Shown piece after piece: positions 1 through 63,500 of a stretch of 64,000 bases of DNA. A program made the translations under genes and the position numbers. Positions within the stretch are counted from its first letter, which is position 1, and the number at the start of each line of letters is the position of its first letter. The notes under the pieces are model-generated. The model ran no database searches. It was not told where the DNA came from and saw only the letters and a list, made by a program, of their open reading frames with translations. Source of the DNA: Arbacia lixula (lineage: Eukaryota; Echinodermata; Echinoidea; Arbacioida; Arbaciidae); the NCBI GenBank assembly GCA_963669155.1, contig OZ022581.1:1018968-1082967 (forward strand), read 5' to 3'.

Positions 1-32652
<32,652 letters not shown>

Positions 32653-36851: not shown

Positions 36852-38679
36852 CTAGAGCTTAGAGGTGGTTTGTGGGGCATCTTCTGGCAGACCTAGCTGG
36901 AAGCACTTAGGGAAGTTTGGATCTCTGATGGCTTCCCGCTCCATGGTAAACGGAGCGATGTTGAAGCTGGTCTTTCCCTCGATGGCTAGCTCACTCAGGA
37001 TCTGACCCAGCACAGCTGCAAACCTACATACACATGGAAAAAAGTAAAGTCACTTGGTTTCCCTTTTTTTGCTGTTATTTAACATGCTTAAATGAACAAT
37101 CGCCCGTGAGGATAGACCCTGTTGCATAAAACTTACCATTGATGGTAACTTTGCTATCAACGACAACTTCTATGGAAACCTTGCATTTGATTGGATGTTG
37201 AACGATGTTACCACAGTAGTTACCATTGATGACAAAGTTACCATTAATGTCAAGTTTTATGCAGCGGGGCCCTGAAGTCCACAACTAATATAGACACAAA
37301 GGGCATTATAAAGAATCCATATGGCCCAATCAATGATTCACAGCAGCTAAAGACACAAATTGAGTCAAGGGTTCAAGAGCATCAAAAGATATCTGTCACC
37401 TTGCTCTTGAAGGAAGGGGTGCCATCCACCCATACTTGTTGTGCACCATTGATGTATCTTTGCACAACTCAGTCATTCGCATAATCCCCATAGACAGATT
37501 TTTTGTAAGTTACACAATATGTTTAAGGACATGTATGTAACCTGACATAGGTAGCTTGAACTCGCCTCAATAGACGTTGAATTTTTATTACAACAGTTGA
37601 AGTTTATTGAAATTCTAATCTCATTCTTTTTGTCGTCAATAGATTGCAGGTAATATATCAATCGTTACCTTCCATCCAAATGGCTTTCACCCAATACATG
37701 TATTAGGTTGAAACAGTATAGAGTGTGGCTCTTCCATTTCCTACACGAGGGATGGAGTGTTTGCCAACTAAAGGGGGAAGTGCAAAAACGCACAAGGCTG
37801 GCTCGATACCTGGCAAGGACTTGTGTGGGACTCAAACCCACGACCTTTCCATTTAGAGACAAACTCTCTACCAACTGAGCCATGCTGCTCCCTAACGTGC
37901 ACTACTCACTTGTAGGCTGCTCCCAGCTCGATCACTCAATGTGAATTAGGGACCGCATGATCGTTACCAAAATCGCGGAATAAGGGGTCAATTCCAAGCA
38001 ATGTCCGCGGACAACCACGGACAAAATAATCCTTGAAATGTAGAAAATAGGGGGGCACAGGTGTCCTCAAAATTGATAAAATAGTGGTCATGAAAAGGGA
38101 AAGGAGAAAACTTAACCGGGAAGAAAAATTCTCGGAGCGCAGTCGCGATTCAGAAGAGCGCGCCCCGCGCCTGCTTTTATCAATCTTACACCCGGTTCAT
38201 GCCCAAAGAAAAAGTCCTCCACATTGCAAATCAACAGAACGCGTGCAGAACACCCGTACTGTACTAACGTATATTAACTAATAAAAAAAGGTATAAATGT
38301 CTTGTCCTTGAAATATGGTAATAGGGATAAATTTGCGAAAGTGTCCTTACAATCTTAAAAATAGGGGTATTAGAAAGTATGATTTTGTCCTTGTTTTGAC
38401 GTAAAAAAGGGGTTAGAATTCACAGAATGTCCTTGAAATTTACCGCGAAAGGGGGTTATTTGCAGTTGTGGTAACGGTCATATGCGTCACCCTCTACGGG
38501 GGAGTGACGGCCCTAACGTGCAATAGTACCCGAAGTGGTACTCACTTGTATGCGTGGCCAGCACCACAGCAGAAGAAGACGTTGGGGAAGCCTTGTTTCC
38601 GGCAGTCATCGATGACGAAGTTTCTGTCCGAAGTCATAGCATACAGACATGTCTTGGTGTACAGTATGGGGCCGAGCGC
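36852..38679 (-). CDS. Oxidase exons 7-8: flavin-attachment and C-terminal segment with SKL
   Basis: Exon 7, 38679-38546 ([20 protein letters not shown] ... [10 protein letters not shown], ends phase 2). Exon 8, 37023-36852 ([20 protein letters not shown] ... SKL, TAG at 36854-36852). TKTC carries the Cys that forms the covalent FAD link in MSOX. GHAYK carries the Lys matching MSOX K348, split across the exon 7/8 junction. The C-terminal SKL is a canonical PTS1, so import into peroxisomes is expected. Confidence 0.93.
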
Positions 38680-41600
38680 CTGAAAAATAAGACACAACAA
38701 ACTTGATATGAAATGTGACCCATCCCCCCCTGCAAAACCATAATAATGTCATTATTCATTGCAGTTTCCATATCTTTAAACTATCAGCATTCATATGAAA
38801 TATCCAGGTGTAATTATAGTTCATGTGGTATGCCCTTTGGCAAAAGTCAGAAAACTTGGCAGGAACCTGCAGTATACCATAACGATAGCGTGTATGAAAT
38901 GTCATAGTCAAAGCTTCATGAACCTTCTAATAAAAAGAAAAATGATCATTGTTGACATTTGAAACATAGCGATCTACATTCATAACACATTGCAGCAGCC
39001 AGTGATACAGGTTCACAGTACCTGCTCTCCTCACATTACCGCAGACAATTTGGAGCAGATCGACATCCGAGATTGCAGTCTCTGAGGTTTAGGACGACCC
39101 GCCCAAAACGTACTATAAATCTAAAAGTCTGTATCATTCTGCTCAATGTCACTTCCCCAGTTCTATATTATTGGGAGGGAAGTTCGTATACATTTCCTTC
39201 TTTTTTTTTTAATTTCGTGTTTTACCAAATTGATTTTTTTTTTTATCTGCAAAAGGGGATCTTTACGGCCCCCTTGCCCCCATTAAATCTAAACCGTCAA
39301 TTTAATGAACATTGTTGGTGATAGGTCACAAATAATCAATATGTTGACTCTCAACATCAAAATACATTCCAGACAACCCACATTGTTACCAGCAAAAGTC
39401 TTCTCCAGGTATTAACTCATCATGTGCAATGGGTGAATTTTGCTTCTCTAGAAATGTGCACAAATGCCATCGTCTACCACTTGCCTGGCATTGATTGGAG
39501 CTGAAGTTGCTGCTGCAATGTTTGTTCAGCCCGGTGCACAGAAATAGACATAGGCTAGGCACGATGTAGCAAGAATAAGTACCGGTATGGTGAATTTGTT
39601 GTAATATCTCTTAAAAACAGAAGCGCGCAGTAATAATGATCTACCCCATCATCAACTCCCTGACTGACATACCTGCAGCACAACACCTCAACCTAGTCAC
39701 TACTTATCTGCATGGCCATCCACATGCTCAAACATCTAACTACTAAAGATCTTTCTTCCCGGACTCAACCAAACTTTGGGATGCTCTGCCAGCAAAAGCC
39801 TGCATCTGCAACTCAATAGCCAGTTTCAATCTGTGTTGCAGGAAATAAAACTGCGCTTAGTGACATATCCCATATGCTTAAACATCTAACTACCAATAAA
39901 GGTCTTTCTTCCCGGACTCAACCAAACTTTGGAATGCAGTGCCAGCCAAAGCCATCATCTGCAACTCGGTAGCCAGTTTCAAAACTGAGTTGCAGGAAAT
40001 AAAACTGCGCTAGGATTGAGCCTGTATTTTTAATTGCACAAAGATTAGAATTTCCACAGCACTTAACATAAACTGCACAACACAAAGTACGACAATACAC
40101 TGACAGCAAGGTGAACTGTACTTCAATGGAAGAAGAAATCCCTATTCTTCACAACGGATGCTCAATAATCTAAAAGTTGATGCAAAAAAGCCTAAAGTAA
40201 TAAACTTGGTGACACCATTTCATTCTCTTACAACAAACTCAAATATGATCCATTTGTTTTATATATACCAAATTAAACAATAATGTACGAGTAAAATATC
40301 TTGAGCCTACAACCATTTAATATGATTTGTATAGAGCAGAACTCTACTTTATTTTCATCAGTCAACAACGTAAGTTGATGATAGATTGTATAGTACGTAA
40401 TCAACTAATAAGAAACTCTATTTAAAAAGACACATTTCCTTTTTAGAAGAACCAATAACACACATTGTGTAACTGTTCAGTCTGCCTGATATGTTTGCAG
40501 GAACAAATAGTGGACAGCTCTTAGTGACAATTGGAGGCATGGGCGGAAATCCCGGGGGGACGGGGGGGGGGGGGGTCGTGTCCCCCCCACCATTTCGAAG
40601 GGGGGGGGGGACACAATATCAAATGTCCCCCCCACTATTTTCGTCCGTGTATAAAATTTGTTAGAAAAACGTCATAACCCCCCCACACCATTTCGAAATG
40701 GGGGGGACACAATATGAAATTTCCCCCCCCCCACTATTTTCGTTCGTGTATATATATATATATTTTTCGGAAAACGTCATTCCCCCCCCCCCCCATCTGA
40801 GAGCATTTTCAGAGACTGGCCGGGATAAAAATGAAATGAAGGAAAAAAAACACCTCCCCAAAATCCTATCACTACCCCCCCCCCCTCCCCCCCTTCCCAC
40901 TGAGAGCATTTTCAGACTGGCCGGGATAAAATAAAATGAAATAAGACTGGCCGGGATAAAAATAAAATGAAGGAAAAAAAAACACCTCCCAAAAATCCCA
41001 TCACTACCCCCCCATCTCCCGCTCAGCTACCTCTTGAGGAAAAACATGTTCCCTCCACCTTCGGGGAGCGATTTCCGCCCATGATTGGAGGTACCTATAT
41101 AGGCCGGTTCCTAAGGCCTGTAACTATAGAACTAGTTTAAAACATTTTGTTTTCCACAATTGGTGCTGCCATATTTTGCTTTGTGGGCACAATTCTCCGT
41201 AAATTCCAAATTACTTGCTATCCCACTCTGATGGTCCACTCGCAAGTTCAAGTTATCGCGATGCTTAAATTACATGTTGACTTCAATAGATTCAGTCCCC
41301 GTGAATCAGTAGTTCCACTCACCCTCTTACAAATCTTAGCCAGCAACTTTTCTACTTCGTATTCCCTGTAAGGATCAGGCATGAAGGTTCTGGTCTTGGG
41401 ACTAACTGCAGGACCCGCAGCATCGATGCCCACCTTGACTCCTGTGGTCCCATGAATGGGCACACCGTACACCGAATGATTGCCAGAATGATTGTCGTAA
41501 GAAAAATAGCTAAATGTGGGGAATCTACATAAGGAAGTATAAAACAAAAACATGAAAAGTACTTGGCTATACCCTCTCCAGCAATCCATCGATTTATGAT

Positions 41601-43614
41601 CAAGTCTTTGAAAGAAATGTTCACACTATGTGTAATCAAAGTTAACAACGAGAACTCTAACTTGTCATTGCCCTCCTGAGGCAACATATTTCTTGGTTTC
41701 TGAAATAATAACATATAGTGTGGACATTTCTTTCAGGGTAGACAAATGTGTGTTTTTTTGGTTGATTCTGGCAAATCTGACATAGCAATCATTTGTGACC
41801 CATTACCATTAAGCCATTGCTCTTTCGTTACCCGTGGACACAACTCGGTGATAACGTTTGCCGCCCTCTTTTCCCTCTTCGGGTCAGGGATGTAAGTTCT
41901 GGTCCCGGGGGTGACCGCTGGTCCCGCGGCATCCATTCCGATTTTGAACCCGGAGTTGCCGTGGATGGGAAGAGCATACGGTACTTTTCCCTGCCCGGTG
42001 TGATATATGAACACCGGGAATCTGCAATGTGGGAAATGGCAAGGGGGCACATGCAAGCCAAGGAGTCAAGCAAGAAGCAGTAGTAGGAGAGACAGGTGCA
42101 TGGGGGATTCCAGGGAGAGGTACAAACAGGAATGGGTGACCAGGATGAGAGGTTAAGGAGTGAGGAGAAAAATAGATGGAGGGAGGTAAGAAGAGCATGG
42201 GATAAATAAGGCAAGTTGTTAACTTGGACATGGGATCACAGTGGGTGAGGGGTGTGTTGATGCACCGGGCACCAGGCATGGGGTGAAGCATGGTGAGAAT
42301 ATTCCAAGGGGTATGAAGGACAGGTGCAAAAGGGGAGGGGCAATCATGCAGGATATCAGGGTTAAAGAAGGAGTAGATTAGATGGGAATAAAGAGGGGGG
42401 AAAGGGAGTAGAAGGGTCAAGGGGGTAGAAGGGTCAAGGGGATAGAAGTGGTAAGGGGGTAGAAGGGGGCAAGCTAGGGGGCAAGGGGGTAGAAGGGGCC
42501 AAGTGGGTAGAGGCAAGAGGTAAGTGGATGAATCAATGACAAGGGGTATTATGGGGGGAGGTACGAAGAGGAAGGGGTACACCAGGACAAGACGTATAAA
42601 CCAGAAGAAGTAAATTAGATCAGAATTAAGAAGGTGGTAAGGCGGTAGAAGGCCAAGGGGGTAGAAGGGCCATGGGGGTAGAAAGGGGCAAGAGGTGACA
42701 GTGTGAATGGGCTCAAAATGGATGGATCAATGGTGAGGGGCATGATGGGGGAGAGGAAGGGAAAGGAAGGCGTGACCAGGATGAGAGGGTTGAAGTGATA
42801 GGAGACAAATGATAGGGGAGTTAAAGAAAGCAAGGAGACAAAAGAGGCAGGAGTTGGTTTTGAGAATGGGTTCACCAGCATGGCTAAATCTAAAACGTGT
42901 ACAAACAAACAACAGCAAGCATGCGCAGGCATAGGCTGAAAGGCCATTATAGAAAAGGTGGTTATTGTGGCATGCGGCATCAACAAACTGCCTCTGTGGC
43001 GACGTTAATCAAAAACTCTTGTCACACTGAAAGCATGAGAGACCATGATAGCTAGAATAAAACAAAATTCATTATCTGCATGCAAGTTATGATGGGTTAT
43101 GTATGTTAGCTCACTAATTGCAAATCAATTATAGATTAAGCCAAGCGAAGCTGTGTCTTAAATTTGAGCATTGTAAATTTGATCGAGCACTGCGAAATAT
43201 GTAGCCATTATTTGGGGAACAAAGGTTGTTTACAAGTACAAGACTACAAACGTAGACTGTAAAGTTACAGTTTTTATTCATTGCACATGAATTTTAGACT
43301 TATATCCAAGCATGGCATCGTATCATGAGCATTACAGCGTTAAATCTAACTCTGACGGTAAATAATAGCCATTATTTGGGGATCAAAGGTTATTTACGAG
43401 CACAGCACTGACTATTGGACTTTGGACAGTAGAAACTAGAAGGAACACATCAGAGTCATGTCTGGTACAATGGCATTGTATGTATATGAGTACATGGTGA
43501 TGGCTCATGACTACATTGTATTCGTTTCCACGTTCATATTTATCTCCCTTTTGACCTATTCATCTTATCCAAATCTGGTTTTACATTGATCAGTAAAGAT
43601 TGATTTTTCTATCC

Positions 43615-43666
<52 letters not shown>

Positions 43667-43671
43667 CTCTT

Positions 43672-43707
<36 letters not shown>

Positions 43708-43727
43708 CCTCTCTATCTCTCTCTCTA

Positions 43728-43778
<51 letters not shown>

Positions 43779-43779
43779 T

Positions 43780-43850
<71 letters not shown>

Positions 43851-46800
43851 TAATCTACCTACCTACCTACCTATCTATCTATATATCCATCCATCCATCA
43901 TACCTACCTATCTTTGGTGAACTCCTTCATGTGCGGAGTTGCAAAGTATGTGACCTGTTCCTGGGTGACTGTAAGCGGTATGTTGACCCCAACGGATGCC
44001 AGGACATCGTTCATCCAAGCACCGGCCGTTACTATCACCTTCCTGCACAGGAAGTCCCCTTGGCTAGTACACACCTAGGGTCATGGGCAGGAGCAAAGTA
44101 TTCACATTTGACATCCAGAACAACACAAACATAAAGCTCCGCTAAGGTTGATATAAAAAACAAAGGCCCTACTAAACACTTATATCTTGTAATTAAATTG
44201 TTTCAATTTTGCTTTACATCTTACTTTCCTGCGCTATTTGTAGTATAAACAACAGACCATCATTTATCCTTTGTGTGTCATATTTATGACAAAGCAATTA
44301 AATACTTATTAGCATGCTACTAATTATAATAGGGTAACGTAACGTTTTCAAATCTTTCTTACTCTCACTCTCGACAAGTTTACAAACTTACCATTTCATT
44401 TTGAAAATATTCTTTGTTCTATATATTCATCAAGGTCAGAGTAGTTTGCCCTATTTTTCTAATACTTTTCCTGATGTCTTCAGAAATGTTTCAGTTCTTG
44501 TCAGTTCTTGTTTTGGCGATACAACAGGCTTTCATGCATTGCCATATTGTGCTAAGTGAGGATCAGGCTGATGTTTTGATATGTCTAAGGTAACAAAGAT
44601 CGCAGAATTAATGGATGGATACGGGGGCAGATAAATGTGCAATCAATGCAAAGGGACATAGGCTGGTCATGTCACCAGAAGGAGAGATGGAAGATGGGCA
44701 CTCAAACTGCTGAATGGACACTGCTAAACTGAAAAGGCCACAGAGCAGGGAAAAAGTACACAGGGGTTTGGGGTGATTCTGCCCCCGAAATGCTTAAAAG
44801 AGCCCTGATAAGCGTTAAATAGAGCCCCCAGTAGACACAATGTAAAACTGTAGCCAAATGGCCAGTGTGCTCAAACAGTAGCCCCCCCCCAAAAAAAATA
44901 AAAATAAAAATAAAAATAAAAATAAAAATGAACTATTTCCCCCCTAGTACAGAGGTTGGCAAAGTAGTCAAAGAGCGAGAGAAGAAATACAACAATTCTG
45001 GAATGAAACCAACTGATATAGATATGCGAGGGAAAGAGAGAATTAAAGAGATCATGCTGAGGCCTTTATCCAGCAGCGGATTGACAATGAATGAAGAAAA
45101 ATATAACTTATAGTATAATTTTTACTTTGTAAATTGGACAAGTGTCAGACTGTATGTTTGATGATATTTGTATTGATCAATATCAACATCAAGACAGAAA
45201 AGGGCAATGAAGATCTCAAAACCAAACGATGGAAAAGGGAGCAGGCCTTTATTCAGCAGTGGTCATTGTAACATCCCACTCAATTCAGTCTCGGTCTCTG
45301 ATCTCCGGTCTTCGGACTGTGAAATTGGAAAGACCCTCTAAACCACAAAAAAAGAAAAAAAAAAGAAGAAATGATGGCATACCCTTGTGAATGTGCCCTG
45401 TTTCTCCATCCTGATCACCGCCGCGTTCTCCACGATGGTTGCCCCGTTCTTGCGGGCCAGCTGGATATGGACTGCGTTGCCCATGGCAGCATCCACTAGC
45501 CCGGAGTCTTTCTGGTACAGGCAGACCCAGTCAGGGGTCGGGTCAAACTGCGGGAACTTCCGACGGAGGCTCTCTCCCACTAACCTCTCATAGCTGCATA
45601 GATGATCAAAGGCAAAGAGGCAATGAATATAAACAAAGAGAGGTTGAACACTCTTATTTCCTTGTTTGCCAGACTCCATAAGGCCATATGAGAAATTGGT
45701 GTATTACCAGTGCAAAATGCCTCAATGGCGCATAAAGAGTTAAAGACAGCCCGTCCCTTTTTCAGATCACCACAAAACCATCGAAACATTGGCAAAACAT
45801 ATAAATAAATGTTAGCAAGCTGTATATTCATAATTTGAAACTGATATAGGTAGTGTAAAATTCAAATAATGCACGTAAACAACGTCTGATTAATAGTCTT
45901 TACCTCAGGCTCTTGGCAGTTTGTGTTGAAATAATTGCTTTATTGATTAATCTGTTTATTAAATTATGAAACGCATTATGAAAAAAAATGTTCTATAGAA
46001 GAAATCATCTCCAAAGTTTGGTAATTACTCATAAAATTAGGATTACACACATGCATAATAACCACATGGATACTGTAACAAAGACTAATACTTTTTTCGT
46101 AGTACGAAAAAAGTCGGTTTGAAATTTAACGGCTGAAATTTTTACATATACAGAAAGCTTAAACATGCCATATTCTTTTCAATGGTCTTGAATCACACTT
46201 TCTTCAATTTGCGATCGTGATAGACGATTTCAAATTTTAAGCTTGCAAAAGGGACGGACAATCTTTAAGTCCCATAGGCATTAACAATTGTTGTAATTGT
46301 TGCTTATACTGTTAGATTTTCTGGTTTTGTGGACCCTGGTCCAGTTTCGATATTAACAGTTTTAGTGCCATGGAATTGCAGTAACCATAAGGTTGAGGAT
46401 TAATTGTGTCCTATAATGTATTTGAAGTTTGTCCATAGCCTATATTGTCTTCTTTTTTTCAATACCACTTCATATTATCAAGTTTGCGGTCATTACTTCA
46501 TTGCCATAGCGATTATCTGTTCACAACTCAACTCAAAAAAGAGATCAAAATTATGAATAACAAGGCAATTCAGATGACTGATCATAATGTATTCTAGAAT
46601 TCTAGCTGTAGCGTCTACTATACAGAAAAAAATTGGTAATAAATACAACATCAGGAAGTTTCGGGGGGCGATTTTCTGATTGGAAGATGAGAGAGAGAAG
46701 CAAACGTACACTACAGCTCAGAGGAATTAGCATAGGGAAAGGGAAAGGGAAGAAAGGGAAGGAGCCGCAGTTTTGAACCGCTGTATATTTTGTCCAGTTC

Positions 46801-49800
46801 AGCATGAAACATGATAAATTTTTGGCTAAAGCATCGTGTTTCATGCTGAATGGGACAAAATATACCGCGGTTTAAAACTGCGACTCCTTCCCTTTCTTCC
46901 CTTTCCCTTTCCCTCTGCCAATTCCTTTGAGCTGGAGTGTACAGTAACAATCTACACTATAGTTTAACTGATCAGTGAATCAACTGAATCTACTCAGATT
47001 TCAATTTTCACAAAAAACAACAAACCAGCAAAGCATGATAAGTGAAATACTATAACAAGGCATTAGCAATATTGTGTCTCGCCCACTTGCGAAAATAACC
47101 AGAAATATCGCGATCTCCGTTGCTACGCAAAAGAATTGTATCCCTGGCTGATTGTGAAATATCTGCCACAGAATGTAACATTCCATAAATGAGAAGGGCT
47201 ATTTCACGCAATGCTACTTCCTCTATCTACTCCCCCTCCCCCACCTTCCCCCTTCTTTGAGATGGAATATAAAGCCTCCACCAAGTTCTATTAGATTAGA
47301 CAAAGACAAAACAGGATGATAATCAGTTGCACAATAGAGGAGGTACCCCCAGTGCATCTATGACCCAAGTTAGGTTGTAATCCAAGCAACCTATGTGAAG
47401 TTATTTGTCAAAAGAGAGTCTTGCAGGTAAACTTTAACGTATGACCTCAAATGACCTTTGACCTTATCCTGTGACCTCCAACAGCACCATAACATGAAGG
47501 TACCCCCAGTGCATCTATGACCCAAGTTAGGTTGTAATCCAAGCAACCTATGTGAAGTTATTTGTCAAAAGAGAGTCTTGCAGGTAAACTTTAACGTATG
47601 ACCTCAAATGACCTTTGACCTTATCCTGTGACCTCCAACGGCACCATAACATGAAGGTACACCCAGTGCACCTATGACCCAAGTTAGGTTGTAATCCAAG
47701 CAACCTATGTGAAGTTATTTGTCAAAAGAGAGTCTTGCAGGTAAACTTTAACGTATGACCTCAAATGACCTTTGACCTTATCCTGTGACCTCCAACGGCA
47801 CCATAACATGAAGGTACCCCCAGTGCATCTATGACCCAAGTTAGGTTGTAATCCAAGGAACCCATGTGAAGTTATTTGTCAAAAGAGAGTCTTGCAGGTA
47901 AACTTTAACGTATGATCTCAAATGACCTTTGACCTTATCCTGTGACCTCCAACGGTACCATAACATGAAGGTACCCCCAGTGCATCTGTGACCCAAGTTA
48001 GGTTGTAATCCAAGCAATCCATGTGAAGTTATTTGTCAAAAGAGAGTCTTGCAGGTAAACTTTAACGTATGACCTCAAATGACCTTTGACCTTATCCTGT
48101 GACCTCCAACGGTACCATAACATGAAGGTACCCCTAGTGCATCTATGACCCAAGTTAGGTTGTAATCCAAGCAACCTATGTGAAGTTATTTGTCAAAAGA
48201 GAGTCTTGCAGGTAAACTTTAACGTATGACCTCAAATGACCTTTGACCTTATCCTGTGACCTCCAACGGCACCATAACATGAAGGTACCCCCAGTGCATC
48301 TATGACCCAAGTTAGGTTGTAATCCAAGCAATCCATGTGAAGTTATTTGTCAAAAGAGAGTCTTGCAGGTAAACTTTAACGTATGACCTCAAATGACCTT
48401 TGACCTTATCCTGTGACCTCTAACGGTACCATAACATGAAGGTATCCCCAGTGCATCTATGACCCAAGTTGGGTTGTAATCCAAGCAACCTATGTGAAGT
48501 TATTTGTCAAAAGAGAGTCTTGCAGGTAAACTTTAACATTTGTGACGGACGACGGGCGACGGACGACGGACGACGGACGGACGACGGACGACGGACGGAC
48601 GACGGACGGACGACGGACGGACGACGGACGGACGACGGACGGACGCCATTTGGATCCCTTAGTCTCGCCTTCACCTCCGGTGGGCGAGACAAAAAGCACA
48701 CACAGGATAAGTGAAATTGGCACACATATAAAATAGTGGATAGCTGATCTATATAATTGAATACATAATGTGTACATATGTACTCTGTATCAAGAACAAT
48801 ATCCTTCAACTCAATAAATGTACCATAATTTGTACATCTATTGTATTCTGCTTGCATTTCCCTAGATTCTCTGGATTGATTTATCATACACGAAAAATAA
48901 GGAGACTAGCATTTTGATAGTGTGTGTTACCATTTCATGAAGAAGACATAGATACCATAAACTGCGAGATAAGTTCCTAATGTACTGAAGACCATTCAAA
49001 GGCCTTCATTGTGTCTGGATCTGTCTATGCACGTGAGCTGCTATCACCCACAATATACCACATTATACATGCAACCAAAAGGGTAAATCCCCCCTGGCAT
49101 TTTTTCACGTATCGGAGCATTTAATAGATTCTGATCATTGTCAATTATGAGATTTCCCTAAGCACAAATTGAATGGTATATGTTGCTGCCAATTGATGGC
49201 TTTGTTGGTGGGAAATCATGCATTTTGTGACAAAAATGGGTGATTTTTTTGTGTCAGCTTCTATACACAAATAACAACCTTATCAAGACAACAACATGGT
49301 GTAGGAGGGTATAACTCTTTGGAGAAATTCCAGCCTAGTTTGCAGTGGTCCTGGGCCATATCCTAGATCAACATCGCATACAAACTTTGATTATGTGCCA
49401 GGTATTTTTTCACATGCAAAGCACACAAATTCCCTACAGAAACATTTTATCTCACACATGAGGGGTTTCATAGAATTGCTTTGTATTTCTTTGGCCATAA
49501 GACGGCGTTCACATTTATCTCTGGTAATGCTGTGTGTCTTTTTCAGAAGCAATGCACAATCAAACATCCCAGGAAAGAGTACCATTTTTGACCTTGCATC
49601 AAGGGTTAACAATTAAGTCTCATGGGTACAGATACAAACCTGTGTAACAATTTAACCAGAATGGTTTGTTACACATATGTGATATAATCAACATAGTGTT
49701 ACTATCGAAACCATATATGGTTAAACCATGGTTAAAATAAACATGGTTTTACAACGGTTTTCATTGTTCAACCATCATTCAAAACATGGTTAAAAACACT

Positions 49801-49874: not shown

Positions 49875-52800
49875 GGCCTTAATTGTTCAACCATTGTTGA
49901 ATGAAGACCTCGTCAATCAACCATATGGTTAAACCATGGTTAAAAAAATATGGTATGAGCATTGCTTAAATGATGGTTTTGATTGTAAAACCATCATTCA
50001 AGCTATGTTTAAACCATGTTGTTGTTGTTGTTTCTGACAAGGGTTAGCGGAAGCTTACGGCACGTTCTGTTCCTCCATGGCTTGGGCATAGTTCTCAAGG
50101 ATCCCGGCCCCTACAGTGCCCTTCTTAGCGATGTCCAGACCCCCCGTCTTGTAAACCAGCTGGATCCCCGACTCCTTCTCCGCCTCCCCCCATGCCTTGT
50201 ATGTTCCCTTGGCCAGCTGCACGTAGTCACTGCAGTTGTAGGACAGTCGTCTGAAAAGTTTGGGAAAAAAATGATTTTAACCCTTACATTACCAGGCTTT
50301 GAAAATCATATTGGCTTAATACCCATCTCCATGCTAATGATAATGAGAGAGTTAAAGTAGTTATCAAGTCACTGAAAATATAGGTAAATAGCAGAAGATA
50401 TGGGTGTGTTGGGAGGTGCATGGTGGGGGTGGGGGGTAGGGGTGCAGGGGGTATAGAAACCAAAATATATACACTCTACCAAGATTAAAGGTCAGTCCTC
50501 CCACACACACACACACACACACACACACCCCTTAGCATTTTTCATACATCCGAGGGAAGTTGTCTACAGATATTGATCACTAAAACCATTTACTGATATG
50601 GACTTTCTCAGGCCAACATGGTGGGAAATCATTAATTTTATGACAGAAGGTGAGCACATTAATCTTATCTTTTTGTGACTTGTCTCAGCTTCCACAAATG
50701 ATTAACAAGACAATCACGCAGTCCTACTGGTTCCAATTTACTTAACTGAGCTGGTGCCAAATATTATTTAAGGCGGGGCCAACTTCCAATAACCATAACA
50801 TTTTTATAACATATCTGACTAATTTGCTCAATTGATCTTTGACATATCGACTTTCAGGGTGAACTATGTACTGTACCCCTTTAAAGAAAAATCCCATGCA
50901 GTCATGATCCAGAGATTTTCCATTTGAAAAGCAGGGGAACAAACTTGAATTGAACTACTAAACCCATTGCATGTTTAAGGAAATACTAGCTATATATATG
51001 GCAGGGACCAATCAGCTACTGTATTATAATACTTTCATACAGCATCTATTATTGCCCCCCCCCCCCCTTCATCCCGGCTACTCCACACACACACACAGAA
51101 CAATACCCTAAATAAAACAACAACAACAACCCTTACAGAAATGCAGGCTGGGCTTATATACAGTAGACAGTAACCACATTGTCTATAATCCCCTTGGGCA
51201 ATCATCTATCGTAATAATTTCATGCAGCATCTATTTTTTATTTTTGGCCCACCATACCCCTCCACACAGACAGAACAATTAATACCCAAAATGGAATCCC
51301 CCCCCCTCCCCCACAAACATTGTTACAGGAATGCAGGCTAACTGGGGCAGGGTCAATATACTGTAACTACATTGTCTGTATATTCCCTCCCAGCATACAA
51401 CCTCAATTTATAATCTAATTCTTATATCATAACCCCATCTAATATCATTGAACCATTCTATACATGTATACACATGTATATATAAAAAATAAGACCCAAA
51501 ATCTATCTATCTGTCTCACTCATGCATATAGCAAGCACAAGTAGATTACACAAGTTGCAATGCAGCAGCTAGCTAGCATAAACATATATATATGCCTCAA
51601 TTATGTATCATATTATATTTAAGCTTCTCGAAGGGACACTTCACCCTGAAATCAAGTTAAGGAGACACATGAAAGAAACATATTAGTGAAGGTTTGATGA
51701 AAATCCGTCAAAGGATTAGAGAGTTATGATCTTTTAAAGTTTTGATTTTGTAATGTAACTTGCTTGGTGCTTTACCATATGTTGTGAACATTTTCTCAAA
51801 CAGACATGCATCCTTTTACCAATGCATTTGATGTATCTTTAGAAATACGTTTTTACACAGGCCTGTATGTACAATAAAAATCATTCCATTGTCAAAAACA
51901 GAAAAAGGGCAAGTTATGGAACTATTTGGTACAAAACATATGGCACCTCGCACATGACGTCACAAAATTTAGATTTCAAGAGATCATAACTTTCTTATCT
52001 TTTGACTGGTTCGTCCCGCGTAAAACCTTTCATCACTTATATGTTTCTTTCATGTTTCTGCTTTTATTGAAACCAACTTATCTTCGGGGTAAACTATATC
52101 CCTGTAAATCAATTAGCTTTGCAAAGTATTTACATGATTCTGGAATGATCCTGTGAACCTCCATGATCATGTCCAAGTTTAAACTGCTCCAGACCAAGAA
52201 CACCTGTGGTTGCACAAAATGACAATGACAATAATGATAACAGGATATGTAGTTTTTATGTAACGTTCATTGTATTATTCATTTTTCTCTTTTTCCTTTA
52301 GTAATGTTTTTAATTGTATACTTTTGATATATTGAATAATGAATATGCTGGTGTTTCTTTTCTTTTTCTGGTTTGTTAGGGTGTAAACTGTAAAACATAT
52401 GTTTTGAGTTTTGTATTTGTGCGCGTTTTAATGCAAATTAAGTTGAAATTGAATTGAAATTGGATACAAAGATGATAATAAGTACAATAACTTTAAGTAT
52501 AGGCATGTGATATAATTAATGAATCATATACTGATGTTAACATATACCAAACTATTATGTTAATGTCTCTCTTCCTGTCACAATTCTCCTATGCAATCAA
52601 ACCAATGGCACATGTGGCTGTAATTGTATTGCAAACAGAACGTTGATGTTTGGAGCTACTATATTTCACACACAAAAGCTATACGACACCAGATAGAGCA
52701 AATCTAGTGAGCCTCAACTTAGTACCATTTTAATAATTTTAAAAGTTAAAATTAACCTAATGCCAACAAATACCATTTGCCAAAGAAGCCATCAGCTTGC

Positions 52801-53065
52801 ATGGTCTGAGACTAACTTGACAAACAAAAAGAGACTATTCGCTTTAATTAGCGATAGAGACACTTTGCTCTGTTTTGGTATCTTTCTTTTCAATATGATT
52901 TGGAGGTACAGTGTATACACGGCTTTTGGCTACATAATATTTTAAAAAGCAAAGTTTCGACTTACGACGGCCAGCTTTCCTGGACAACCAGTACACGGCT
53001 GCGCTCCCGACCCCACCGCAGCCGATAACAACATAGTCGAATTGCTTGACGGCTTTTAACGACAT
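36852..53065 (-). CDS. Peroxisomal FAD-dependent amine oxidase, sarcosine/pipecolate oxidase family (complete; mutually exclusive exon 6)
   Basis: Flavoprotein of the monomeric sarcosine oxidase/PIPOX family, which oxidises secondary or N-methylated amino acids with O2, giving H2O2. Transcript order: 53065-52966, 52203-52134, 50250-50059, 45593-45383, 44074-43908, then either 42021-41832 (6a) or 41524-41323 (6b), 38679-38546 and 37023-36852 (TAG). All junctions are GT-AG with matching phases. The product is 411 aa with 6a or 415 aa with 6b, close to the family's usual ~390. Visible features: Rossmann motif GCGGVG (15-20), E39 after the second strand, SRIIR (R55/R58, matching MSOX R49/R52), a Lys matching O2-activating K265, TKTC with the Cys matching flavin-linked C315, a Lys matching K348, and C-terminal SKL (PTS1). 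The substrate is unknown. PIPOX is the nearest vertebrate name, but orthology is not proven. Confidence 0.93.
37083..37420. repeat. Dispersed repeat interrupted by a MITE
   Basis: The same repeat as 12548-12785 is split by the MITE at 37117-37273; the left part ends ...gtgaggatagac and the right part resumes gaagtccacaacta. Confidence 0.7.
37117..37273. mobile_element. MITE family TTACCATTAATGGTAA, copy 3 (nested insertion)
   Basis: Starts cctgttgcataaaacttacc and ends caagttttatgcagcggggc-cc, an imperfect inverted pair. It is inserted into another repeat whose uninterrupted copy is at 12548-12785, which fixes its borders. Oxidase intron 7. Confidence 0.82.
37760..37893 (-). mobile_element. 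tRNA-derived SINE fragment
   Basis: The minus strand has a perfect Pol III A box TGGCTCAGTTGG (37882-37871) and a B-box-like GGTTTGAGTCC (37838-37828) at normal tRNA spacing. The T stem pairs (GTGGG/CCCAC), but the anticodon and acceptor stems do not, so this is a tRNA-derived repeat, not a tRNA gene. Confidence 0.55.
39690..40016 (+). mobile_element. LINE 3' end, tandemly duplicated remnant
   Basis: A frame reads [18 protein letters not shown] and, about 195 bp later, [18 protein letters not shown], each followed by N-S-(I/V)-A-S-F. This resembles the (S/T).LWN.LP...SF ending of non-LTR retrotransposon ORF2. The DNA repeat tctttcttcccggactcaac is present at about 39750 and 39903. Oxidase intron between exons 7 and 6b. 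Confidence 0.5.
40538..41083. mobile_element. hAT-like MITE with long G/C homopolymers, copy 2
   Basis: Ends are catgggcggaaatc and gatttccgcccatg (inverted). Perfect 8-bp target duplications attggagg flank it at 40530-40537 and 41084-41091, diagnostic of the hAT superfamily. The interior is an expanded version of copy 1, with its block containing cgggataaaa repeated several times between G/C runs. In the oxidase intron between exon 7 and exon 6b. Confidence 0.9.
41323..41524 (-). CDS. Oxidase exon 6b, second of a mutually exclusive pair
   Basis: 202 nt (3n+1), acceptor atgtag, donor gtgagt. The entry and exit phases are the same as exon 6a. It encodes 67 codons, including [20 protein letters not shown] and [13 protein letters not shown], with a 4-residue insertion (SGNH area) just before the active-site Tyr. 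No frame damage. It sits 307 bp downstream of 6a. Using both or neither would shift the frame of exon 7. Confidence 0.9.
41832..42021 (-). CDS. Oxidase exon 6a, first of a mutually exclusive pair
   Basis: 190 nt (3n+1), acceptor ttgcag, donor gtaacg. It enters at phase 2 (completing Arg) and ends in phase 0. It encodes 63 full codons, including [20 protein letters not shown], then [13 protein letters not shown]. By spacing from the family, Tyr262 and Lys273 match MSOX Tyr254 and Lys265 (the O2-activating lysine), and Asp277 stands where MSOX has His269. About 48% identical to exon 6b in protein. Confidence 0.9.
42060..42800. repeat. Purine-rich low-complexity tract (about 740 bp)
   Basis: The + strand is dominated by A and G, with many degenerate ggggtagaaggg / gggtcaagggg units at 42400-42510. 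In the oxidase transcript (minus strand) this is a very long pyrimidine-rich tract just upstream of exon 6a. Open frames across it are compositional artefacts. Confidence 0.9.
43608..43907. repeat. (TATC)n microsatellite, about 300 bp, abutting the exon 5 donor
   Basis: Mostly (tatc)n, with short (tacc)n and (catc)n ends at 43855-43907. The donor of oxidase exon 5 (minus strand gtaggt at 43907-43902) is part of the terminal tacctacc units. Confidence 0.97.
43908..53065 (-). CDS. Oxidase exons 1-5: FAD-binding half
   Basis: Exon 1, 53065-52966 ([20 protein letters not shown]..., ends phase 1). Exon 2, 52203-52134 ([20 protein letters not shown], ends phase 2). Exon 3, 50250-50059 ([20 protein letters not shown] ... 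[11 protein letters not shown], ends phase 2). Exon 4, 45593-45383 ([20 protein letters not shown], ends phase 0). Exon 5, 44074-43908 ([14 protein letters not shown] ... [12 protein letters not shown], ends phase 2). The ATG is the first in-frame one, and the Rossmann strand begins 9 residues in, as in the family. The 70-nt exon 2 was found from the required family motif; it fits both flanking phases exactly. The exon 5 donor (gtaggtatg) is followed by (GATA)n within about 15 bp. Confidence 0.92.
44755..44935. repeat. Dispersed repeat, copy 2, with (AAAAAT)n run
   Basis: Second copy of the 35725-35882 repeat, followed directly by an (aaaaat)n run at about 44890-44928. Oxidase intron 4 region (between 43908 and 45383 it lies in the intron after exon 4). 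Confidence 0.8.
45740..46268 (-). mobile_element. TTAA-flanked 530-bp MITE (piggyBac-like), copy 2
   Basis: Same element as 24314-24843 in the opposite orientation, 529 bp, with TTAA at 45740-45743 and 46265-46268. The central hairpin is a perfect 25-nt palindrome at 46090-46114. It lies in intron 3 of the oxidase gene. Confidence 0.88.
46707..46941. mobile_element. Palindromic TA-flanked MITE, copy 1
   Basis: Two arms of about 100 bp (tacactacagctcagaggaa ... ; ... ttcctttgagctggagtgta) fold back, with inner pairs such as ccgctgtatattttgtcc/ggacaaaatataccgcgg and catgaaac/gtttcatg. TA at both ends suggests Tc1/mariner-type insertion. A second copy is at 58064-58290. Confidence 0.88.
47055..48695. 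mobile_element. Composite element with 157-bp tandem core (pearl/HINE-like), copy 1
   Basis: The left part carries tgtctcgcccac (47075); the right end carries gtgggcgagaca, its exact inverse. Inside are eight units at 47342, 47499, 47656, 47813, 47970, 48127, 48284 and 48441, each 157 bp (last one cut), then a (GACGGAC)n-type microsatellite at about 48542-48645 and a conserved 3' segment with its own hairpin (gtctcgcc ... gggcgagac). This layout resembles the bivalve pearl elements (about 160-bp core repeats plus an ACGG microsatellite). It lies in oxidase intron 3. Confidence 0.9.
48696..49640. other. Oxidase intron 3 segment, nothing recognised
   Basis: AT-rich, no coding potential and no clear repeat structure visible by eye. 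Confidence 0.5.
49640..50030. repeat. TGGTTAAACCAT-rich palindromic region with (ATC)n run
   Basis: Many overlapping copies of catggttaaac/aaccatggtt in both orientations, interrupted by an (atc)n run at about 49830-49874. It ends about 30 bp from the exon 3 donor at 50058. Probably stacked foldback elements. Confidence 0.75.
50500..50528. repeat. (CA)n microsatellite
   Basis: A run of cacaca dinucleotides in the intron upstream of exon 3. The rest of 50251-51630 is AT-rich with short C runs (51056-51067) and nothing else recognised. Confidence 0.9.
51632..52104. mobile_element. MITE-like element ending 30 bp from oxidase exon 2
   Basis: gggacacttcaccctgaaat at the left and gggtaaactatatcccta-like sequence at the right form a loose inverted pair; inner arms gaaagaaacatatt / tatgtttctttc and gagttatgatct / agatcataact also pair. 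A style common in marine invertebrate genomes. Confidence 0.6.
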
Positions 53066-55569: not shown

Positions 55570-56655
55570 CAAGGCATTAGCAATATTGTGTCTCGCCCAC
55601 TTGCGAAAATAACCAGAAATATCGCGATCTCCGTTGCTACGCAAAAGAATTGTATCCCTCACACAATTCTGTGCACAAGTTAGGAAGCCTTCACTAAGAG
55701 TCTTGCAAGTAAACTTTAATGTATGACCTCAAATGACCTTTGACCTTATCATGTGACCTCTTACAGCACAATAACATGCAGGTGCCCCAAGTGCATCCAT
55801 CATCCAAGTTTGATTGCCATTGTAGCAACATGTGATGAGTTATGTGTGATAAGAGAGTCTTGCAAGTAAACTTTAACGTATGACCTCAAATGACCTTTGA
55901 CCTTATCCTGTGACCTCCAACAGTACCATAACATGAAGGTACCCCCAGTGCATCTATGACCCAAGTTAGGTTGTAATCCAAGCAACCTATGTGAAGTTAT
56001 TTGTCAAAAGAGAGTCTTGCAGGTAAACTTTAACGTATGACCTCAAATGACCTTTGACCTTATCCTGTGACCTCCAACGGTACCATAACATGAAGGTACC
56101 CCCAGTGCATCTATGACCCAAGTTAGGTTGTAATCCAAGCAACCTATGTGAAGTTATTTGTCAAAAGAGAGTCTTGCAGGTCAACTTTAACGTATGACCT
56201 CAAATGACCTTTGACCTCATCCTGTGACCTCTAACGGTACCATAACATGAAGGTACCCCCAGTGCATCTATGACCCAAGTTAGGTTGTAATCCAAGCAAC
56301 CTATGCGAAGTTATTTGTCAAAAGAGAGTCTTGCAGGTAAACTTTAACATAGAAAAAGAGAGTCTTGCACATACTCTTTAATATATGACCTCAAATGACC
56401 TTTGACCTCATCACATGACCTCTGACAACACCATAACATGAAGATACCCCTAGTGCTTCTATCAACCAAGTGTGGCTGCCATTGCTGTAACAGTTGCCAA
56501 GTTATGGATCATAAGAGAGTCTTGCAGGTAAACTTTAACATTTGTGACGGACGACGGACGACGGACGGACGACGGACGACGGACGGACGGACGACGGACG
56601 GACGCCATTTGGATCCCTTAGTCTCGCCTTCACCTCCGGTGGGCGAGACAAAAAT
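55570..56655. mobile_element. Composite element with 157-bp tandem core (pearl/HINE-like), copy 2
   Basis: The same ends as copy 1 (acaaggcattagcaatattg ... gtgggcgagacaaaaa) and the same orientation. Five core units (about 55781, 55938, 56095, 56252, 56441); the first and last are divergent and one carries a 32-bp insertion. A shorter ACGG-type tract lies at about 56545-56605. It is about 2.5 kb upstream of the oxidase ATG. Confidence 0.9.
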
Positions 56656-60252: not shown

Positions 60253-63200
60253 TCACTTTGACTCGCTCTTATGTCTGCAGCTTCCCTTGTGGAAGACCGT
60301 CTTCATGAGCTCGACTCCTTCCGAGTCGGTGCTGTCCAGATCGGAGTCATCGCTGCTGTTTGAATACGAGCCAATCCCAGGCAGCACGGCGATGCACTGC
60401 ACCCCCTGCGTCCCGTCACCACCACCCACACGCTCCTCCTCCTCGCTCTCACTTGTCCAATGTGCGTTACTATGGCGATCCCTACCAGCAGAATGTCCAT
60501 TGCTTGAGGAGACATCTGGCGCTGGTTTCGTTGATGGCGCAGCAGGCTCTGTGGATGGTGATGTGCTCTCGGATTTCTTGGGCTCGTCTTCAGTTGTTGG
60601 CCTGCGATTGCAATAATGGCAATGTTAGCACTAAGAACGTGAATGAGGAAGAGAACTCTGATCAACACATCTGGGCCCCATTGCATAAAACTTACCATTA
60701 ATGGTAATTCTGTCATCAATGGTAACACCAATCAACAGCCAATCAAGTTGAAGGTTTCCATAGAAGTTGCCAATGATAGCAAAGTTATTATCAATGGTAA
60801 GTTTTATGCAACAGGGCCCAGGTAGAGTAGTTTCTAGGTTGTAGAGTGAATGGACACAATTGAGTCTGATAACAACTAATGTCTGGTAACACAAGCCACG
60901 CCCTACTCCCGCTCTCTGGCCTGGCCTCATGTCTGAGGAGAGGCCAGGCCAGCAAGTGGGATTAGAGAATAGTCTGTGTTACCAGACATAGTTGGCTTCA
61001 CATCTGGTACAATGCCCTACTGCTCGAGGGCCACTCTGCATCTGAGCATCTTGGTCACATGTATGCCAGAGCTGTTCAGTCATGAACTTCATGCAGTACA
61101 ACAGATATGCTGGGAGAGATTTGCCTACACGCAACTATTCACCTGTGATTGCTGAAAAGTGCATCAAGAAATCACATTGTATTGATATCTAAAAAAAGAT
61201 ACTGTTTTTCTAATAAATTTAGTAATGTAGGCCAAACTTTTGCACGAGCTGCTATGATTTAGACCATGTTTTATGCCACAATTTAATCAAATTATTTAGA
61301 AAAAGATCGTGTAAACTGTATTAACTACCGTGAATTAAGCATCATTTCCTGACCTTTTTGAAGCATACTTATCTGCTTATATGCCACAAAATCTGCTTAA
61401 ACCATGGTTTAAATCCAAAACTCCTGTGTGAATTCAGGCCAATGACTAATACTATGTATTTATGTAATTCATTTGTTTGTGTTTTCTTTTTTCCCCCTTT
61501 TTTTTTTACTTGTGACTATCCCTGATTTTTTTTATTACCATGCTTCGTATTCTTAATAAATATCTTATTATCAAAAAATATTATAATGCCATCTGGCAAC
61601 GTGTCCTTCGTTGCTGAGGCATAAAACAGAAAGATGGATATTGTCTGCCCACCTCTTCCTCTTGACAGCTCCAGCAAGCAGGGCAGCCTGACTCCTCTTG
61701 CTGCCAGACGCTACAGCCTTCCTGCCCCCCAGCTGGCCCATTGAAGCCTTGGCACTCTCACTAGGAGCAGCAACAGCCACCGTCCTGTTCACTACAGATT
61801 CGTGGAAGGAAATCATTAAGGAAACAACTATATATACAAGTGCAGAAATGCAAGTAAAGTTGGAGTTCTTTGCCATTTGTCAACCCCGAAAAAGGACGTG
61901 CAATGACAGACGAGTGCTCTGCAATAAATATTTTCATAAGTGCAGTTCATGGTGCATGGCTGTTGAGACATATCAATGATCAATGATTGTTTATTTGTTT
62001 TGTTTGTTTGTTTATGGAACAACGTGCAGACAGCACCACTAACATAAACATGTAAATGCTTGTGAACACATTTGCAACTGTAAATGACCCATAAACATTT
62101 TTCAAACAAAAGAGAAAAGGAGTGAAGCAATGTTTTAGACAAATACAGTTCACTCTGAATGAGAGTTAATACTGGTGGAAGACAAGTGTCAGGCGTTACC
62201 TAAGTAGTCAAAGAAAAATGGCAATCTGACCCAAATCAACTGGCTGAAATTTAAAATTTGTCAAGAAATTCTTCACATCACTGAGGTACGTAACTAAGTC
62301 CTCTTAGATCAATAGATCTTCGATCCTCTTCTTTTGGGTTGGTAACTAGCAGAAGAAAAAAAGCTCAGAGCTCGTAGGAATAACACAGCTACTAAGCAAG
62401 CTCACATTGGAATATCAATGAAATGTTTCAGAATGAAATACATAAATGTCGCCGAAATATCATGTGATATAGAAATAACAACAAAGAAAGGATATTTTGT
62501 ATTCCCTGATCAGCTTTTTCTCTTCCGACATCCTCTCCATTTCAATCTTCATCTGCTTCTCTGCAACCTCATTGAGGAACTTGGACTCTTCATCATCAAT
62601 GCCCCGGACCATGTTTTCTGTAAGATAGAGGAACACAAAGAAAAGAAATGGTCATCATTTAAAGGGAAAGACCACCCTGAAGGTAAGTCGGTTTTGATAA
62701 AAGCAAGAATATTAAAGAAACAAAATATCATAAGTGGTGAAATAATATTGATTGTGACCCATCTTTGCCAGAAGAATTTCTAGCTTTTTGGAAACTATGA
62801 TATTTTGGTAAGTTTAAGCAGGTTCATTGACTTTTGACCTCTACCCAAAATGTCATCATGCTTGGATGGTATTGGATCTGATTTGTATTTATTGTGAATA
62901 AGATACATTTTCTTTCTGTAGTTTGTAGTCTGTTTGTTTGTCCTTAGTCAGATTTGATTCTAATCATACAGAGTTTATTGGTTTTATGAATTACATGTAC
63001 CAAGTTTGAAGCAAATCCCTTCAGCGGCTCTCAAAACATTGTCTAAACAGATTTCGGCCGGCCGGACGGTTCGACAACCCCAAAACATTCAAAATAATGC
63101 ACTCACTGTACAAGTGTACTGAAGAAATTCATTGCCCATGTTCATATGTACAGTTGACTTTGAACATAAGACGCAGTGAACCACTGAACTCACTGAATTT

Positions 63201-63292
63201 GAACTGCTCCTCAAAGTCTGACTGCTTCTTGTCTTTCTGGTCCTGCAGCTTCTCAAACAGAGTCCTTGGATCATACTCTTCTTCAGGGCATT
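60253..63292 (-). CDS. PSME3IP1: PSME3-interacting protein 1 (FAM192A/NIP30), 5'-partial
   Basis: Nuclear partner of the proteasome activator PA28-gamma (PSME3). Exons in transcript order: 63292-63194 ([20 protein letters not shown] ... EEQFKF), 62617-about 62483 ([20 protein letters not shown] ...), 61791-61653 ([16 protein letters not shown]) and 60601-60253 ([20 protein letters not shown], then [13 protein letters not shown] at 60255-60253). These match the NIP30 core and the AKLLAGAVK and acidic SSDSESSSDSEG blocks of the human protein. The visible part is 239 aa; human is about 254 aa in total, so roughly 50 N-terminal residues lie beyond the window. The acidic serine block is the kind of CK2 target used for PA28-gamma binding in human. 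Caveat: the donor of the second exon is weak (gttgtt at 62482, or gttatt at 62479); both keep phase. Confidence 0.92.
60673..60821. mobile_element. MITE family TTACCATTAATGGTAA, copy 4
   Basis: gggccccattgcataaaact at the left and gttttatgcaacagggccca at the right; the best-preserved copy of the family. PSME3IP1 last intron. Confidence 0.88.
60873..60995. repeat. Foldback element, ~50-bp arms
   Basis: caactaatgtctggtaacac and gtgttaccagacatagttgg are inverted ends; ggcctggcc also pairs near the centre. PSME3IP1 last intron. Confidence 0.8.
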
Positions 63293-63500
63293 CTGAAATA
63301 GCAAGGTTTACACATGTGTATGTGGGCCTGTCGACAGTAATGGGGTACATTTCTGTTACATTTACTGTAACATTTGCATAAATCTCTTAAATTCCAATTA
63401 TTCTTTTTGCCTCTTAAATAAACCAGCCAACAATAATAAAATATGAAAGAAATGTATTGATTTGCACTTTACAACGTTTTGTACACTTCAGAAAATTTGC

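Follow-up and report, generated by a model that had tools for sequence, protein, structure and literature searches.

The Arbacia lixula DNA analyzed here, a 64-kb stretch that we call the window, contains an eight-exon minus-strand gene (53065–36852) for a peroxisomal FAD-dependent amine oxidase whose product has a C-terminal SKL. The explanation that we find best, and quite probable on the sequence evidence, is that this one gene is spliced to include either of two sixth exons, 6a or 6b, that the swap changes the substrate pocket of the enzyme, and that the exon pair goes back to a single duplication preceding the split from the Lytechinus lineage. The either/or use of the two exons by one gene, as proposed in the original prediction, is well supported by four observations: a reading frame that locks the choice, other exons that are single-copy in the window, coding constraint on both alternatives, and a run of 243 residues common to two products in Lytechinus pictus.

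All exons lie on the minus strand, and active-site positions are numbered by alignment with the Bacillus sarcosine oxidase. Exon 1 (52966–53065) carries the start ATG, the FAD-binding Rossmann motif and a GTC/GTAAGT donor; exon 2 (52134–52203) encodes GGSQDHSRI; and exon 3 (50059–50250) supplies the Arg52 and Tyr55 equivalents (residues 58 and 61). These are followed by exon 4 (45383–45593) and exon 5 (43908–44074), the latter exiting in phase 2 and showing the highest conservation of any exon against L. pictus (53/56). Exon 6a (41832–42021) has Ile at the Met245 position, Tyr254, Lys265 and Asp at 269, and exon 6b (41323–41524) has Ser at the Met245 position, the same Tyr, Lys and Asp, and additional residues preceding the Tyr. 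Exon 7 (38546–38679) contains the Cys315 and Tyr317 equivalents, the codon of the Lys348 equivalent is divided across exons 7 and 8, and exon 8 (36852–37023) encodes the terminal SKL, a peroxisomal signal, followed by the stop codon.

Both sixth exons were found where they had been predicted, with AG acceptors and GT donors, and their lengths (190 nt for 6a, 202 nt for 6b) are both 3n+1, with entry in phase 2 and exit in phase 0. The predicted frame lock held: when joined in silico, exons 1–5, 7 and 8 plus one exon 6 gave a single open frame, encoding 411 residues with 6a (isoform A) and 415 residues with 6b (isoform B), double inclusion gave a stop at codon 315, and skipping of both gave a stop at codon 262. 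The pair thus has the hallmarks of tandem-duplicated exons, namely adjacent homologous exons, compatible splice sites and phases, and a frame broken by both or neither. In a tblastn search of the 64-kb window (E up to 1), every other exon matched one place, so the doubling in the window is limited to exon 6; the sole additional match beyond the exon set (22032–22151) was at chance level (E 0.83). In Arbacia lixula, the splicing machinery would take 6a or 6b, one per transcript, and double or skipped transcripts, being out of frame, would be destroyed by nonsense-mediated decay.

A search of relatives for the same exon pair had been suggested, and protein records of L. pictus (P0002, P0004 and P0014) do show both types, their usage being known there from database annotation rather than reads. 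Isoform X1 (P0002) carries a 6b-type exon and X2 (P0014) a 6a-type exon, and their first 243 residues are identical. X2 is a 305-residue record that stops right after 6a, so that the 6a form is truncated there. A third record (P0004, nr) is of the 6a type, with a different start and without exon 1; it equals X1 from exon 2 up to exon 6, has two mismatches to it among the 102 residues of exons 7–8, and is the only one of the L. pictus records in which 6a is joined to exons 7–8.

Profile searches placed both isoforms in the FAD oxidoreductase family that includes the Bacillus monomeric sarcosine oxidase and the bacterial N-methyl-L-tryptophan oxidase (2uzz). The PF01266 domain was detected at 146.1 and 139.7 bits (cut-off, 27.9) over residues 10–367 and 10–371, and NCBIfam NF008425 (N-methyl-L-tryptophan oxidase) at 286.5 bits for isoform A and 279.1 bits for isoform B (cut-off, 257); the scores against soxA_mon (TIGR01377) were 230.8 and 227.2 bits, below its cut-off of 479.65. 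The original prediction spoke of the sarcosine oxidase/PIPOX family; the nearest curated bacterial family is N-methyl-L-tryptophan oxidase. Pairwise alignment showed that both isoforms have the equivalents of Arg52, Tyr55, Lys348, Cys315 (which we take to be the flavin link) and Lys265 (presumably the O2-activating residue), positions that the bacterial enzymes share. The bacterial enzymes differ in being without splice isoforms and at two pocket positions: Met245 is replaced by Ile/Leu or Ser in the urchins, and His269 by Asp, which is found in both isoforms and in 143 of 146 homologues. Sea urchins hold more than one gene of the N-methyl-L-tryptophan/monomeric sarcosine oxidase family, and the family matches listed for this SKL-tailed protein included no vertebrate-named record.

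By alignment, exon 6 contains three of the seven pocket residues of the Bacillus enzyme. The Met245 position, an experimentally established specificity position whose counterpart in MTOX is Thr239 (PMC12582975), is Ile or Leu in the 6a exons, and the 6b exon of each of the two urchins has Ser. Of the 146 homologues, 2 carry Ser here, including the L. pictus 6b form, and 1 carries Val at 256; Lys265 is present in all 146 that have a residue there. Within the ungapped core, five positions are constant within each type and different between the types across both urchins, four of which (256, 261, 264 and 268) fall in the stretch bearing Tyr254, Lys265 and the 269 position. The expectation that each exon would supply both the Tyr and the Lys was borne out by the two window exons, but the Tyr is Phe in L. 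pictus 6b; likewise, the extra residues before the Tyr are present in the window 6b and absent in its L. pictus counterpart. The residue mapping, made by sequence alignment, supports the predicted pocket swap, in which 6a and 6b would confer different substrate pockets.

The exon choice might instead tune stability, protein interaction or, through unproductive transcripts, expression level, leaving the substrate unchanged. Early stops arise from both double inclusion and skipping, as an output-lowering role would have it, and the strong divergence that extends into the C-terminal part of exon 6 and the truncated L. pictus X2 product are also in keeping with a function unrelated to substrate. 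Such a role does not account for the concentration of type-specific positions around Tyr254, Lys265 and 269 or for the change at 245, a known specificity position, and we regard it as unlikely. In our preferred reading, the two isoforms share the FAD domain, the cysteine that links the flavin, the Arg, Tyr and Lys that bind the substrate carboxylate, and the C-terminal SKL; the exchanged exon keeps the O2-activating lysine and alters the pocket wall, chiefly at 245 and also at 256, 261, 264 and 268. The 6b enzyme would then be expected to take N-methyl or cyclic imino acids that are larger or more polar than those taken by the 6a form. A more specific assignment, possible rather than probable, is that 6a serves small N-methyl amino acids, that N-methyl or cyclic imino acids that are bulky or polar fall to 6b, in which Ser replaces the hydrophobic residue at 245, and that the choice is specific to tissue or stage.

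Full alignment of the 6a and 6b peptides gave 34/63 identical residues (54%) with six gap positions; the predicted identity of about 48% agrees with the local BLAST value (48.6%) but not with this alignment. Searched with the 6a protein, the window gave a 72.4-bit match to 6b; among 500 shuffled versions of that protein the top score was 25.8 bits, so the match is not due to chance. Nucleotide comparison yielded a dN of 0.36 and a saturated dS of 3.98, for which YN00 returned no dN/dS value, and differences at the three codon positions numbered 20, 13 and 42 in 63 codons. These patterns indicate that coding function is retained by both exons. A leftover duplicate, rarely or never used, would reduce the gene to one working enzyme. 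Intact frames may survive for some time in such a remnant, but retention of 34/63 residues despite saturated synonymous sites argues against it, as do the retention of both types by two urchins with 280/344 identity over the remaining exons, their use in L. pictus records, and the 6b donor, which is nearer the consensus than that of 6a (8/9 versus 6/9, with C at +5 in 6a). We consider this highly improbable for either exon.

Comparison of the window with L. pictus gave identities of 37/63 for 6a–6a, 40/63 for 6b–6b and 30/63 for each cross pair. The two 6b exons clustered in the exon tree (support, 99/98), and the window and L. pictus proteins clustered in the tree of the rest of the protein (99/97). 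Species-specific duplication of exon 6 in each urchin was rejected (p-AU 0.0043 and 0.0118). A separate clade of the two 6a exons was absent from the tree and was not rejected (p-AU 0.204), and L. pictus 6a is less similar to the window 6a than is a Diadema exon (66%). The p-AU values bearing on whether 6b arose within this gene or before the echinoid paralogues separated were 0.19 for all four exons as one clade and 0.467 for all echinoid exons together. Among 109 protein pairs more than 80% identical outside exon 6, the loss of identity inside exon 6 was 0.56, 0.54 and 0.48 for the L. pictus and window pairs and 0.20–0.36 for pairs across the two species, with the next pair at 0.19. P0002 was the only one of 146 scored homologues with a clear preference for 6b over 6a (207 versus 159); 11 more favored 6b by 1–20 points, mostly at low scores, so that no third species with 6b is shown among the 146. 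The best explanation is that exon 6 was duplicated once, before the Arbacia lixula and Lytechinus lineages split. That 6b belongs to another transcript, through overlap of two genes or collapse of a tandem array, is scarcely credible: adjacent paralogues exist in relatives (three Diadema antillarum records come from contigs of the same length, 1274500) and Amphiura X3 and X4 have exons 1–2 in common while most others differ, but exon 6 alone is repeated in the window and the L. pictus products share flanking exons around both types.

Under one-gene splicing, the choice is probably set at 6a through a long upstream pyrimidine tract, with 6b as the default. This candidate control region (42022–42900, minus strand) reaches the 6a acceptor, is 75% C+T over 879 nt and consists in part of a degenerate 17-nt tandem repeat; the most pyrimidine-rich 200-nt windows of the minus strand in the 64 kb lie just upstream of 6a. 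The AG-free stretch is 201 nt before 6a versus 22–83 nt at the seven other acceptors (37 nt before 6b), a length accounted for by tract composition (reached in 207/1000 shuffles). For the duplicated exons of FYN, TPM1 and TPM2, pyrimidine tracts are given as 43, 67 and 106 nt for the U2AF-repressed copies and 11, 6 and 16 nt for the activated copies, with a longer AG-free zone at the repressed copy in FYN and TPM2 but not TPM1 (PMC5224494). In OGDH 4a/4b, the intron separating the two exons carries the long tract (PMC7969005), whereas the urchin tract precedes 6a.

Other switches fared less well. A weak 6a donor was supported only in part, as its 6/9 consensus match comes with mid-range U1 pairing (−7.3 kcal/mol; five of the gene's eight donors are weaker). 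The 307-nt intron between 6a and 6b (41525–41831, minus strand) contains a 28-nt inverted repeat with 89% complementary arms (41609–41636 and 41708–41735), a 19-nt piece of which occurs in the window just as this pair (2 matches versus 0.08 expected). A looping RNA structure gained no clear support, since the intron as a whole did not fold clearly better than shuffles (z −1.59; 8/100) and the repeat spans neither splice site. Steric exclusion was not favored, because with a 307-nt intron and a 37-nt 3′ AG-free stretch a conventionally positioned branch point would be far from the 6a donor; a distant branch point for 6b was not favored on the same grounds. Minor-spliceosome incompatibility was unsupported, the gene's donors and acceptors being GT and AG.

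Exon swaps in substrate pockets are already known. In human CYP4F3A/CYP4F3B, exon 4 or exon 3 encodes residues 67–114, and the swap, used tissue-specifically, shifts affinity between leukotriene B4 and arachidonic acid (PMC12380495). That case resembles ours in that a single oxidase gene has a pocket-affecting exon choice, but it concerns a biochemically proven P450, whereas the urchin flavin amine oxidase is known here from sequence alone. The mutually exclusive coq-2 exons 6a/6e of C. elegans and helminths lie, like the urchin pair, in sixth place between exons 5 and 7 (of exons 1–8), and their swap alters the enzyme core and substrate use (PMC7434440), two residues near the substrate site being peculiar to one form (PMC8659336); this enzyme, in contrast, is a prenyltransferase with equal exons (134 nt) whose requirement for one isoform was tested genetically. 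In human ACSL6/ACSL1, mutually exclusive exons exchange a short substrate-gate motif (Phe versus Tyr), but these are acyl-CoA synthetases, and an ACSL1 form having neither exon has also been reported (PMC1543647).

The matches listed included no paper on this oxidase exon pair, in line with the predicted lack of an earlier description, although the L. pictus isoforms already stand in the NCBI annotation. The printed exon-switched pockets among those matches belong to a P450, a prenyltransferase and an acyl-CoA synthetase, to which a flavin amine oxidase would be added if our reading is true. Sea urchins would then have a second way, beyond multiple genes, to broaden N-methyl amino acid metabolism, and the bacterial relatives with solved structures and mutants make the effect of the swapped residues predictable and testable. 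Judging from its protein records, Amphiura, a brittle star, may have arrived independently at the same Ile/Ser alternative at this position of the pocket, 245 (Ile in P0053, Ser in P0077).

The minus strand of the window carries a complete eight-exon gene for a peroxisomal FAD-dependent amine oxidase (53065-36852), with an ATG, GT donors, AG acceptors and a C-terminal SKL, and two homologous candidates for its sixth place, exon 6a (42021-41832, 190 nt) and exon 6b (41524-41323, 202 nt), spaced 307 nt apart. The frame was intact with either exon alone, giving isoform A (6a; 411 aa) or isoform B (6b; 415 aa), and ran into a stop when both were included (codon 315) or both omitted (codon 262), confirming the original prediction that two exons of these positions and lengths are held to either/or use by the frame. 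The 6a protein matched 6b at 72.4 bits, compared with at most 25.8 bits for 500 shuffled versions of 6a; the remaining exons had one location apiece within the window, the single extra match being at chance level (E 0.83). Over 63 aligned codons, 6a and 6b differed at 20 first, 13 second and 42 third positions, with a dN of 0.36 and a saturated dS of 3.98 (NG86), which shows that both copies have been maintained as coding. The gene is bracketed by Pfam-assigned exons of CCR4-Not Not1 on one side (29862-30164, plus strand) and FAM192A/Fyv6 on the other (62460-62651 and 63132-63386, minus strand). A 157-nt tandem repeat forms two arrays with similar units (47341-48537, 7.6 copies; 55697-56348, 4.2 copies), one within intron 3 and the other upstream of the gene.

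The top protein matches came from sea urchins, Lytechinus pictus (P0002, isoform X1; 78% over 96%) and Diadema, pointing to a probable echinoid origin of the window. In a tree of the protein minus exon 6, for which 27 of 120 homologues were selected in addition to the window gene, the window and L. pictus genes formed one clade (support 99/97) inside an echinoid group with Diadema genes and urchin paralogues. Scored with curated models, both isoforms exceeded the cut-off of 257 bits for N-methyl-L-tryptophan oxidase (286.5 and 279.1) and fell short of the 479.65 set for the monomeric sarcosine oxidase subfamily (230.8 and 227.2).

The same exon pair was found in the protein records of L. pictus (P0002, P0004 and P0014), and, judged from sequence comparison, the pair is old. 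Isoform X1 contains a 6b-type exon, and isoform X2 (P0014, 305 aa), whose first 243 residues equal those of X1, contains a 6a-type exon. The annotated P0014 stops right after 6a, although P0004 (from nr), in which another start replaces exon 1, equals X1 from exon 2 up to exon 6, carries 6a and runs on into exons 7-8 with 2 of 102 residues differing from X1. Between the window and L. pictus, identity was 37/63 for 6a-6a, 40/63 for 6b-6b and 30/63 for each cross pair, and the two 6b exons were joined in the exon-6 tree (29 rows; support 99/98). Separate duplication in each urchin was rejected in 24-row tests, both when the window 6a and 6b were forced together (p-AU 0.0043) and when those of L. 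pictus were (p-AU 0.0118). The two 6a exons had no clade of their own and the nearest to window 6a was a Diadema exon (66%), which counts against a simple picture of the pair's history; forcing the 6a exons together was not rejected (p-AU 0.204, 24 rows).

To survey how rare the pair is, both isoforms were aligned with all 147 homologues that two full-length searches, limited to the best 120 each, had listed. Among 109 pairs of these with >80% identity and >150 columns outside exon 6 and >40 columns inside, identity dropped most within exon 6 in two L. pictus pairs (0.56 and 0.54) and the window pair (0.48), followed after both urchins by a Batillaria pair (0.19); window-L. pictus cross-species pairs dropped by 0.20-0.36. 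Of the 146 listed homologues scorable against both exons, only P0002, a stand-in for 8 sequences, clearly preferred 6b (207 vs 159); 11 others scored 6b higher by 1-20 points and, scored against both exons, gave no sign of the 6b type. When the 6b region was used as the query by itself, the hits were 10 proteins, headed by P0002. Among the matches listed, therefore, two urchins are known to have the pair. In a gastropod gene model (Nucella lapillus P0012), most of the exon-6 segment occurs in two consecutive, near-identical copies, either a separate exon duplication or a gene-model artefact.

By alignment with Bacillus sarcosine oxidase, exon 6 encodes the equivalents of residues 245, 254 and 269 and of Lys265, whose role we take to be O2 activation; the remaining pocket equivalents fall in shared exons. 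The Bacillus pocket is described as Arg52, Tyr55, Phe100, Met245, Tyr254, His269 and Lys348, and changing the Met245 equivalent of N-methyltryptophan oxidase, Thr239, to Met reportedly raised sarcosine activity and lowered methyltryptophan activity (PMC12582975). Position 245 is Ile in window 6a and Leu in L. pictus 6a, and Ser in both 6b exons; among the listed homologues, Ser occupies it in 2 of the 146 that have a residue there (P0002 and Amphiura P0077). Five positions of the ungapped core were constant within each type and different between types in both urchins (given as 6a/6b: Leu/Val at 256, Asn/Thr at 261, Phe/Val at 264, Met/Ile at 268, and Pro/Lys at a position close to the end of the exon). 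The claim that each exon supplies Tyr254 and Lys265 held for window 6a and 6b, and Lys265 was present in 146/146 listed homologues, but L. pictus 6b has Phe at 254, the sole Phe among the 146. We infer from sequence that exchanging the exon would alter the substrate pocket while the chemistry stays, a sharp, testable prediction. Two records of the brittle star Amphiura filiformis, P0053 (X4) and P0077 (X3), have identical exons 1-2 and an almost identical exon 7 (44/45) and diverge more in the other exons, most in exon 8 (21/56); at 245 one has Ile and the other (P0077) Ser, as in 6a/6b.

Pocket-swapping exon pairs, which the window gene would resemble, are already described in CYP4F3 (PMC12380495), coq-2 (PMC7434440) and ACSL6 (PMC1543647). 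For this oxidase family none was found: titles and abstract starts of the open-access matches listed, which for some queries were the first 15-20 of 51-1,619 papers, held no relevant report linking it to alternative splicing, to exons that are duplicated or mutually exclusive, or to sea urchins.

The 879 nt upstream of 6a are 75% pyrimidine, and when the whole 64 kb was scanned on the gene's strand (200-nt segments, 50-nt steps), the 15 most pyrimidine-rich segments all had upper ends within 42200-42950. At the 6a acceptor the AG-free stretch was 201 nt long, compared with 22-83 nt for the seven remaining acceptors of the gene; since 207 of 1000 shuffles equalled it, its length is attributable to tract composition. 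In the FYN, TPM1 and TPM2 pairs, longer pyrimidine tracts are reported to mark the U2AF-repressed copies (PMC5224494); in OGDH a long tract lies between the two exons (PMC7969005), whereas here it precedes 6a. The 6b donor matched the consensus better (8/9 vs 6/9) and paired more strongly with U1 (-11.2 vs -7.3 kcal/mol), but five of the gene's eight donors paired more weakly than that of 6a. Exon 6b may be the default and 6a the regulated exon. The 6a-6b intron also contains a 28-nt inverted repeat (41609-41636/41708-41735, 89% complementary), a candidate MITE-like element or regulatory hairpin. A TCTA microsatellite of ~77 units (43608-43913) extends to the exon 5 donor, and its length could influence splicing.
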